From NCBI GenBank assembly GCA_944325835.1, contig CALVBO010000015.1:1-33063 (forward strand): DNA of 33,063 bases, in the 5' to 3' direction. Positions 10,505 through 22,977 of this stretch are shown piece by piece. Numbering within the stretch: the first letter of the stretch is position 1; each line of letters starts with the position of its first letter. The stretch comes from Candidatus Gastranaerophilales bacterium (GTDB lineage Bacteria; Cyanobacteriota; Vampirovibrionia; Gastranaerophilales; Gastranaerophilaceae). The notes below the pieces were generated by a model, which was not told where the DNA came from, made no database searches, and saw only the letters and a program-made list of their open reading frames with translations. The position numbers and the translations under genes were made by a program.

Positions 10505-11212
10505 TTAGATTACAAGTAAAAGTTTTATTATCCCGAGCGTCAACAGACTCAAAACAACAAGCGCGCCCCACAGTCCAATTTTAACTTTACGCCTGAGGGT
10601 AAAAAACGGCGCAGGTTTGGATTTGGCAACGGTCGGATATTTGTCAAATTTTGAAAGTTTTTTCTCGGGCTTGCGGCTCTGAACCTTTTTTCGCCGCGCG
10701 ATTTCATCTTCTTTTGCCTGCATTTGAAGATATTTTTCCTTCAAGGTATTTTTATCCTTACTCCGCTTACCGGTTACAAGAAGCTCTTCGTCAAAAAGAA
10801 GCCTTGACACAGAAGCGTCCTGACCGTTTTTTGCCGAATAAAACATAACCGCAACTTCAAACGCCCGCTGCAGGCACTCTAACGCTTTTATTCCGTCCTT
10901 ATCCACCGCACGCGTGTGAACGGACTGATTTCCCGCTTTCTTCAAAAAATACAAATCGCTTATAAGTTCACGTTTTTCCGTACAATTAATCAGGTAATCG
11001 TCAAGGTTTGCAAGCATAGTATCAAACGTATCGTTTGGCTGATAATTCCCGTTGAGAAGCTCACGGCAGACATTCTCCGCAAAACATCTGGTCTGCGTCA
11101 TACACTGTTGAAAATATTCATCACGATAAAGCGCCTCCGCCTCTTTTGCAAGTTTAAAAATGTTGCGATTTATTTCTTTTATAAAGTAAAAATTGCTTTC
11201 GTTCTTTTTCAT
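10505..11212 (-). CDS. DUF4145-like protein with C-terminal membrane anchor
   Basis: The function is not known. The N-terminal 130 residues resemble the DUF4145 helical domain: a helix with CFAENVCRELL, then FLKKAGNQSVHT, reminiscent of the GN.(A)H pattern in that family. This domain occurs alone or fused to restriction and defence proteins. Residues 150-205 are highly charged and Lys/Arg-rich. The last 26 residues form a single hydrophobic helix (IGLWGALVVLSLLTLGIIKL), so the protein looks tail-anchored with the domain in the cytoplasm. The SD is modest (AGGG). It is flanked by the M16 gene and the sRNA-like unit, and no defence genes are nearby. The domain assignment is tentative. Confidence 0.7.
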   Translation of the reverse strand: MKKNESNFYFIKEINRNIFKLAKEAEALYRDEYFQQCMTQTRCFAENVCRELLNGNYQPNDTFDTMLANLDDYLINCTEKRELISDLYFLKKAGNQSVHTRAVDKDGIKALECLQRAFEVAVMFYSAKNGQDASVSRLLFDEELLVTGKRSKDKNTLKEKYLQMQAKEDEIARRKKVQSRKPEKKLSKFDKYPTVAKSKPAPFFTLRRKVKIGLWGALVVLSLLTLGIIKLLLVI

Positions 11213-11277: not shown

Positions 11278-11306
11278 TTGTTACATGAATTGAAAAGTTG
11301 TAGTAT
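11278..11306 (+). promoter_or_regulatory. Promoter of the intergenic sRNA candidate
   Basis: TTGTTA (11278-11283), a 17-base spacer and TAGTAT (11301-11306) form a reasonable sigma-70 type promoter. The predicted start is near 11312. Confidence 0.55.
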
Positions 11307-11311
11307 CATGC

Positions 11312-11387
11312 ATGTACAACTATTCCAAAATCTCCTCCCAAGATTTTATGTATGAGTCCTCATGTCAGACATGGGACTTTTCTTTTT
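11312..11387 (+). ncRNA. Small RNA candidate with CCUCCC loop and intrinsic terminator
   Basis: A stand-alone transcription unit of about 75 bases lies between a minus gene on the left and the end of plsY on the right. After the promoter come a hairpin, AAAATCT/AGATTTT (11327-11333, 11341-11347), with the loop CCTCCCA, and a second, terminator-like hairpin. The second pairs AGTCC(T)CATGT with ACATGGGACT and is followed by TTTCTTTTT (11355-11387). An exposed CUCC-rich loop can pair with Shine-Dalgarno sequences, as in C-rich-loop sRNAs of Firmicutes and Yfr1 of cyanobacteria; that is analogy only. The longest ORF inside (15 codons from 11308) has no SD. Confidence 0.6.
11355..11387 (+). terminator. 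Intrinsic terminator of the sRNA candidate
   Basis: The stem is 10 bp with a bulged T at 11360 and a CAG loop at 11366-11368. It is followed by an interrupted T-run (TTTCTTTTT). No annotated plus-strand gene precedes it, which points to a short dedicated transcript. Confidence 0.75.
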
Positions 11388-11413
11388 GGCTAATTGCTGC
11401 CTGTCAAATTCGA

Positions 11414-12025
11414 TTAGAACTCAGTTTTATTTTCAACACCCTTGATTAAACGTTGGACGTTTTCGCGGTGGAGGTAAGTAATATAAATTGCACCGACAAC
11501 AGCGTAAACAATGTATGCAACGGGTGAATCCATAAGAAACATTGTTACCGGTGTGGACCAGATTGCAATAATTGAACCGAGTGAAACGTACTTACTTGCC
11601 TTTGTAATCACAATCCAGAGAAGCCCGAATACAAGCGCTGCAACCCAGTTCAAAGCCAAAATTGTACCAACGCCCGAGGCAACGGATTTTCCGCCGGTAA
11701 AGCCGAGAAAAATTGATTTACTGTGACCGAGCAGAACTGCAATGGCCGCAAGCACCGGCAGCAAACCTATTCCCATAAACGCGGTTGTAAAATGGTACGC
11801 AAGAAGTACCGGAATCATCCCTTTCATCATATCGAGGAACAGCGTGATAAAAAACCACTTTTTACCCATAACACGCTTAACGTTGGTGGCACCGGTAGAG
11901 CCGGAACCGATTTTGCGAATATCTTCGCCCTTAAAGTGCTTTACAATCAAATATCCGGTCGGAATTGAGCCGATAATATAAGCAATTATAACGGTTAACA
12001 CCAGTTGAATTATATCCGGTAACAT
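11414..12025 (-). CDS. plsY: Glycerol-3-phosphate acyltransferase PlsY
   Basis: This inner-membrane enzyme transfers an acyl group from acyl-phosphate to glycerol-3-phosphate, the first step of phospholipid synthesis. The diagnostic motifs are present: GSIPTGYLIVK near 19-29, GSGSTGATNVKR near 41-52, and GHSKSIFLGFTGGKSVASGVG near 98-118. Several hydrophobic helices give the usual polytopic topology, and 203 residues is typical. Only 3 bases separate its ATG from the stop of waaA, so the two are co-transcribed: envelope phospholipid and LPS-core genes together. The partner PlsX is not in the window. Confidence 0.95.
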   Translation of the reverse strand: MLPDIIQLVLTVIIAYIIGSIPTGYLIVKHFKGEDIRKIGSGSTGATNVKRVMGKKWFFITLFLDMMKGMIPVLLAYHFTTAFMGIGLLPVLAAIAVLLGHSKSIFLGFTGGKSVASGVGTILALNWVAALVFGLLWIVITKASKYVSLGSIIAIWSTPVTMFLMDSPVAYIVYAVVGAIYITYLHRENVQRLIKGVENKTEF

Positions 12026-20735: not shown

Positions 20736-21176
20736 ATGAAACTATTAGTGATAAACGGAGTTAATTTAAACTTACTTGGAGTCAGAGAACCTGAAAAATA
20801 CGGCACCCTGACACTTAAAGACTTAGAAAAAAGTTTGTACGCATATTCATTTGAATTAGGAGTTGATCTGGAGATGTTCCGGAGCAACTTTGAGGGAGAG
20901 ATTGTCGAAAAAATCCATTCAGCACGCGGAAATATCGACGGAATAGTCATAAACGCCGGCGCCTATACGCACACCAGCGTTGCAATCCGTGACGCGCTTG
21001 CAGGCGTTGATATTCCGACAGTTGAAGTTCACCTGACAAATATCTATAAACGCGAAGAATTCCGTCACCACTCATACATTGCACCGGTTGCAATCGGACA
21101 AATTTCGGGGCTTGGCTTTGACGGCTACAAATTCGCTATTTCCGCATTGAAAAATTTGATTGAGGAGAAAAAATAA
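20736..21176 (+). CDS. aroQ: 3-dehydroquinate dehydratase, type II
   Basis: It converts 3-dehydroquinate to 3-dehydroshikimate in the shikimate pathway as a cytoplasmic dodecamer. The type II hallmarks are clear: [19 protein letters not shown] with the catalytic Tyr22, the [16 protein letters not shown] block (about 74-88), and [17 protein letters not shown] with the catalytic His99. The 146 residues match the family. The SD GAGGAT is 6 bases upstream. Its stop codon overlaps the deoB start by one base (TAATG), so the two are translationally coupled although the pathways are unrelated. Confidence 0.97.
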
Positions 21177-22964: not shown

Positions 22965-22977
22965 AATGGAGGCTAAA

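Follow-up and report, generated by a model that had tools for sequence, protein, structure and literature searches.

A conserved small RNA gene with an anti-Shine-Dalgarno motif in the order Candidatus Gastranaerophilales

Introduction

The window, by which we mean the whole stretch of 33,063 nucleotides analysed here, contains a previously uncatalogued small RNA (sRNA) gene for an RNA of about 70 nt. The gene is real: it is a conserved non-coding plus-strand unit with a promoter and a terminator that occurs order-wide, independently of its neighbours and nearly always in single copy, its transcription being deduced from the sequence. The family it represents is new, while functionally the sRNA is of a kind already known; we consider it probable that the RNA regulates a limited set of mRNAs in trans by pairing with their Shine-Dalgarno (SD) regions. 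The genome in question, 1.95 Mb in size, belongs to a non-photosynthetic gut lineage of Cyanobacteriota, and its contig C15 is the window. No family in Rfam 15 matched it at gathering cut-offs, permissive Rfam scans of homologs gave sub-threshold matches only, and the literature searched contained no earlier description of such an sRNA in Gastranaerophilales or Melainabacteria.

Results

Layout of the sRNA gene

As modelled, the sRNA gene occupies positions 11311-11387 (+), with a match to our covariance model R1 (see below) at 11311-11386. A consensus scan places a promoter-like sequence directly upstream on the same strand, consisting of a -35-like GTTACA (11280-11285), an 18-nt spacer and a -10-like TATCAT (11304-11309). 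A TAnnnT hexamer is found in the matching position in 173 of 181 homologous copies, most commonly as TATCAT, TATAAT or TATTAT, and transcription is predicted to start at about 11314-11318. The near-invariant core TATTCCAAAATCTCCTCCCAAGATTT at 11322-11347 (+), defined by invariant alignment columns and corresponding to the order consensus TATCCCCAAATCTCCTCCCAAGATTAT, encloses the anti-SD motif CTCCTCCC (11332-11339, +), which is complementary to GGGAGGAG and present in essentially all copies. In the predicted fold, AAAATCT at 11327-11333 pairs with AGATTTT at 11341-11347 on the plus strand to form a small, optional and lineage-specific hairpin with the loop CCTCCCA at 11334-11340. Folding and scanning both identify an intrinsic terminator at 11354-11387 (+), with the stem GAGTCC.CATGT/ACATGGGACTT at 11354-11379 and the U tract TTTTCTTTTT ending at 11387. 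Promoter, 7-pair hairpin with its CCTCCCA loop and terminator, as described in an earlier note on this DNA, are hence all present in the window.

Taken alone, the window sequence has a folding z-score of -1.7, with 10 of 200 shuffles folding equally well, and its promoter and terminator matches in the consensus scan are close to chance counts; the doubt raised by these weak single-sequence statistics is removed by the conservation of the element. Since a terminator hairpin with a U tract occurs in 181/181 copies and covaries, the plus strand is fixed, and a minus-strand transcript was ruled out because U tract and terminator belong to the plus strand.

In copies from family f1, repeated CATG and TGTAACA words surround the promoter some 20-60 nt before the core (for example ATGTAACAAA...CATGCTTG..TATCATGCATGTACAAC), and they are possibly a regulator binding site. 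A separate 24-bp match of the upstream region at C5:96381 was put down to probable chance.

The sRNA is found throughout one order

Homologs were gathered starting with a 114-base query, which gave matches across the family and the order; 47 of them were aligned and used to build R1, a home-made model whose E-values are rough. The genomes sampled were species representatives, mostly metagenome-assembled. R1 matched 234 of 382 class genomes, all of them within the order of the window, Candidatus Gastranaerophilales, which corresponds to 234 of the 286 genomes sampled from this order and to 0/96 from the other orders of the class. The phylum sample (n=292) yielded 114 matches, again in this order only, and the exact core pattern showed the same distribution, with 0 matches for the reversed control. 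When 40 chosen genomes were searched more laxly, clear matches were confined to families f3 and f4 of the order and scores elsewhere were at chance level. Very divergent versions may exist outside the order, where absence rests on samples. The term 'orphan', which the earlier note had used, does not fit an sRNA with such a distribution.

Nearly all sRNA-bearing genomes have one copy. G285 is among the few genomes with two (C13:11-77 and C24:13774-13840), one of which lies at a contig edge, and the second copy may be an assembly effect. Several genera of the window's family (g21, g26, g36, g9, g37 and g3) are without the sRNA, apparently through loss, and the sRNA is therefore not indispensable. 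A few of the matching records carry titles that look like misnamed bins, for example Fusobacterium sp. CAG:439. In the sole match from a viral collection (IMGVR_UViG_3300010163_003650; L189:1820-3465), tRNA-Arg(acg) and a phage integrase come after the sRNA, an order that points to a provirus inserted at the tRNA, outside of which the sRNA would lie in host DNA; a phage origin of the sRNA was rejected, as this single IMG/VR contig carries it in apparent host flank.

The sRNA gene is free-standing

In the window, the sRNA gene lies between two minus-strand genes: a divergent upstream gene (10505-11212) for a 235-aa protein without a Pfam match, and the convergent downstream gene plsY (11414-12025), encoding glycerol-3-phosphate acyltransferase (PF02660, E 3.4e-50). 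In NCBIfam, the 235-aa protein weakly resembles a type I restriction enzyme model over the N-terminal part of that model, at E 2.5e-11 and far below cut-off. Both genes are conserved neighbours of the sRNA in the window's genus only. We compared 187 loci, a number in which some genomes are counted twice because two collections were combined. In one subclade (82/187 loci), a divergent aroQ lies about 120 bp from the sRNA. In the window, aroQ (20736-21176, +) is 9.4 kb away on the same contig, and the region has therefore been rearranged in the window's genus.

Instead of acting in trans, could the element belong to the next gene as its 5' leader or attenuator, or be translated itself as a short, leaderless frame? 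A predicted Sm-like gene follows on the same strand at 34 loci, and in many family f1 copies an ATG stands close to the predicted transcription start, as either version would have it. Against this, the downstream neighbour is on the same strand at 74 loci and on the opposite strand at 71, and the upstream neighbour is mostly divergent (107 loci, with 37 co-directional). As neighbours differ by clade and point either way, a cis-acting leader is unlikely and the gene is best regarded as free-standing. With respect to coding, no SD-led ORF crosses the core in any frame among the 181 homologous copies, in line with the earlier claim of an sRNA without an SD-supported ORF; the copies share no SD, common start or common stop, and the core is equally invariant at every codon position. 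Reading frames on both strands were rejected. We regard the idea of a leader or reading frame as largely refuted and barely credible. Conservation and varying neighbours together support the view of an independent sRNA gene with a CU-rich anti-SD motif, as first proposed from the window.

Selection acts on the core sequence and not on the small hairpin

Among 181 distinct copies, the majority frequency averaged over the core CCCCAAAUCUCCUCCCAAGAUU, counted from -10 to +13 relative to CTCCTCC, is 0.98, compared with 0.53-0.54 for the flanking DNA on either side. Some copies were collected with the exact core pattern, which inflates the value of 0.98 for the middle of the block; copies from whole-element DNA or model searches show the same core conservation. 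The terminator hairpin, found with a T run in every copy, covaries at 7/7 pairs, with 121 two-sided changes (counted as cells) compared with 25 in shuffles, and the signal is lost when the pairing partners are slid. The alignment behind these counts was fitted to the structure and is somewhat favourable, and the raw sequences show the same.

The small hairpin behaves differently. It has 7 contiguous pairs in 6 of the 181 copies, 6 pairs in 1 and 5 pairs in 156, and is broken in 18; the 7-bp form is restricted to the window's genus. In an alignment of 56 sequences, four pairs are constant and the only variation at the fifth is loss of pairing, and neither compensatory change nor covariation was detected in the stem among the homologs. 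The sequence of the copies in families f3 and f4, CCCCCAAATCTCCTCCCAAAATATTT or similar, does not allow the hairpin to form. Across seven representatives, CUCCUCCC is predicted to be mostly unpaired (mean 0.65-0.99) with or without the hairpin. From these alignments and folds we conclude that selection acts on the core sequence and not on the small hairpin.

These data bear on the proposal that CCUCCCA is displayed in a structured loop by the 7-bp hairpin and that translation of most SD-led genes comes under broad regulation by the RNA. Folding does predict the hairpin for the window, and most copies could form its 5-bp version, but the stem shows no covariation and the broken copies are spread over several lineages. 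As for broad regulation, few SDs match the motif well: among 1,899 start regions of the own genome, 126 contain GGAGG, 9 GGGAGG and 4 GGAGGAG, which does not fit a global SD blocker. We therefore find the proposal improbable, and the displaying hairpin, which the earlier note had treated as an essential feature, is not supported as such. That note had asked for conservation of both stems and the loop in relatives and had named lack of stem conservation as its refutation; the terminator and the CU-rich sequence are conserved as expected, but the small stem is not.

A proposed action in trans on selected mRNAs

The sequence CUCCUCCC is complementary to GGGAGGAG, an extended SD. In the mechanism that we favour, the gene's own promoter and intrinsic terminator would give rise to an RNA of about 70 nt, in which the largely unpaired invariant element CCCCAAAUCUCCUCCCAAGAU would present the anti-SD core CUCCUCCC. 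This core would base-pair in trans with ribosome-binding sites rich in purines on a limited number of mRNAs; pairing would keep translation from starting and may also leave the mRNA open to decay, and the terminator stem and U tract would both end and protect the RNA. Yfr1 and alpha-r14/NfeR1, two known groups whose invariant motifs are nearly identical to this one, pair with mRNAs or are predicted to do so. By analogy to them, the sRNA most likely blocks translation initiation of selected mRNAs; we infer mRNA pairing, repression and target identity alike. A conserved, predicted-accessible SD-complementary sequence in a free-standing unit places the gene, with its presumed transcript, in the functional class of anti-SD sRNAs.

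We looked for targets in the own genome, rebuilt from 44 contigs (1,945,477 of 1,948,967 bases), using simple ORF calls and scoring about 1,900 start regions. No conserved mRNA target was found in this search, in which only the own genome was scanned in full. In RNAduplex calculations, a 42-nt RNA did no better against the roughly 1,900 start regions than reversed or shuffled controls. The 25-nt core gave about twice as many strong pairings with the 1,899 start regions as full shuffles, with 8% of shuffles equalling the core, and its conserved flanks gave no pairing excess over shuffled flanks. Two example targets named in the earlier note did not stand out: the SD near 22968 was ordinary, ranking 277-1106 of 1894 by three scorings, and that of the ORF at 1605-2840, the glgC of that note, ranked 10-131, within the range of shuffled controls.

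A bipartite site, AATCTTN{1,2}GGGAGG, had more matches than controls in family f1, and was rejected as a target signature because the matches are not at orthologous genes. The best single candidate in the own genome was a gene at C1:198914-199849 (-), with 14 bp over its SD; it was rejected as a conserved target since the site is not kept in orthologs beyond a sister species. The product is a secreted protein of about 311 aa without a Pfam match, which forms a tandem pair with a diverged copy in 50 of 53 order genomes searched. In a family f4 genome (G096:C198), this secreted-protein pair adjoins the sRNA on the same contig.

The near-total invariance of about 24 nt exceeds the needs of an 8-nt anti-SD, and SD pairing alone is no explanation for it. 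One way to account for so long an invariant block is that the sRNA pairs mainly with another RNA, for instance a second sRNA, and not with SD regions, for which the mutual pairing of Yfr1 and Yfr2 in Prochlorococcus is a precedent (PMC6778093). However, an 18-nt complement of the core with up to 3 mismatches occurred only at the sRNA gene itself in the own genome (the reversed control matched 4 places). Any RNA partner must therefore pair over a shorter or gapped stretch, and we consider an RNA as the main partner highly improbable.

A predicted Sm-like protein is encoded near the sRNA in some clades

At 60/187 loci (for example L011, L014 and L034), a conserved protein of about 83 aa is encoded no more than 1 kb from the sRNA, on either strand. 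The protein belongs to no Pfam or NCBIfam family at cut-off. AlphaFold2 predicts a helix, five strands and a helix (mean pLDDT 88.5), and the structural matches listed by Foldseek are Sm and LSm proteins at E of about 1e-3. Realignment added Hfq, including Synechocystis Hfq, with Z up to 8.4 over 55-65 residues and an rmsd of 1.7-2.9, where a Z near 8 can reflect a common arrangement and two of the listed matches are not Sm proteins, yet the Sm fold dominates the list. On the strength of these models, the protein is possibly an unrecognised Sm-like RNA-binding protein of Gastranaerophilales. The Pfam Hfq model had a match in 1 of 142 relatives; as it also missed a cyanobacterial control, absence of Hfq is not proven.

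The invariant block might accordingly be a protein site, for example for the nearby Sm/Hfq-fold protein, with the RNA being a sponge, regulator or client. The length of the invariance (about 24 nt, in which the flanks bring no gain in SD pairing) and the presence of the predicted Sm-like gene at most 1 kb away at 60 loci speak for such a site, as does the co-transcription of alpha-proteobacterial CcsR with the small RNA-binding protein CcaF1 (PMC10253847). However, the linkage is seen only in some clades and is not universal, since the own genome carries the gene on another contig (L337:12374-12628 (-), equivalent to G000:C1:192374-192628), and co-expression is not general, because the gene lies in either orientation. 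We therefore judge a protein site unlikely as the main function of the block. There is also a small chance that the sRNA has in the Sm/Hfq-fold protein its own dedicated riboregulatory partner and that, in these non-photosynthetic bacteria related to cyanobacteria, the two take the place of control by Hfq and Yfr1.

Comparison with known anti-SD RNAs

Yfr1 (RF01116) is an sRNA of photosynthetic cyanobacteria, 54-69 nt long, in which two stem-loops are separated by 16-20 unpaired nt holding the perfectly conserved motif ACUCCUCACAC; its gene lies near guaB and/or trxA in most, not all, cyanobacteria, and Yfr10 shares the motif (PMC2190773, PMC6778093). The sRNA described here comes from the same phylum, is of similar size (about 70 nt) and likewise has one invariant CU-rich motif with CUCCUC followed by an intrinsic terminator; by our own comparison, ACUCCUCACAC of Yfr1 and UCUCCUCCCAA are alike at 8/11 positions. 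However, UCUCCUCCCAA is found in nearly all 181 copies and differs from ACUCCUCACAC at invariant positions, the alignment and the predicted folds of seven representatives show no conserved 5' stem-loop, and the neighbours are aroQ, the small Sm-like gene, plsY and others. Neither a CxxC thioredoxin nor an IMP dehydrogenase signature was seen in the nearest flanking ORFs. In the own genome, the best score of the Yfr1 model was 13.2 bits, elsewhere than at the sRNA and compared with a gathering score of 38 bits, and at E 0.01 the model found nothing in 194 class genomes (0/194), with a positive Synechococcus elongatus control; nor did Yfr1 appear among the permissive Rfam matches of a homolog. 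The earlier description of the RNA as Yfr1-like in concept and different in sequence is thus borne out. On present evidence the sRNA would work like Yfr1 without belonging to its family, although the two might still descend from a common ancestor and have drifted far apart.

In alpha-proteobacteria, the ultraconserved anti-SD motif CCUCCUCCC of alpha-r14 (NfeR1) is found in each of three hairpins and lies in unpaired regions (PMC10746234), and the CcsR or 'cuckoo' RNAs are linked to the gene for the small RNA-binding protein CcaF1 (PMC10253847). CCUCCUCCC has 8/9 letters in common with UCUCCUCCC of the new sRNA. In contrast to alpha-r14, the latter has a single motif, and its one conserved helix is the terminator. 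CcaF1 is a DUF1127 protein, whereas the neighbour of about 83 aa is predicted to be Sm-like. The likeness to alpha-r14 and CcsR of another phylum is likely convergence, and the sRNA is a member of neither Yfr1 nor alpha-r14. The Betaproteobacteria toxic small RNA (RF02278) resembles it in a full-length covariance alignment, with UCUCCUC in a loop followed by a terminator, but homolog L014 scored 22.6 bits against a gathering score of 50 and the window was unmatched. RF02278 belongs to a distant phylum and has a strong hairpin, whereas the hairpin here is weak or broken.

A second element with the same motif

The own genome has a second intergenic CTCCTCCC with a terminator at C18:18631-18697, within the stretch C18:18600-18697 (+) (L305). 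A thioredoxin-fold gene and a DsbD/CcdA-like gene follow 50 bp downstream. It has CTCCTCCCCnAGTCTnGT and the terminator in common with an element in three f3 genomes (L254, L256 and L257), where this second element exists beside the main sRNA. Its predicted fold in the own genome is very stable (z -5.2) and ties up CUCCUCCC in the pairs of a long hairpin; the element may be a second anti-SD RNA or an attenuator.

Significance

With this gene, the Gastranaerophilales, common gut bacteria known mostly from metagenomes, gain a strongly conserved sRNA family that is missing from Rfam; the covariance model is suited to annotation and open to a direct check in gut metatranscriptomes. A sister class of the photosynthetic cyanobacteria, in which we found no Yfr1, keeps an sRNA with the same kind of motif. 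This raises the testable question of whether anti-SD riboregulation goes back to the ancestor of the phylum, its motif having turned over since, or arose repeatedly.
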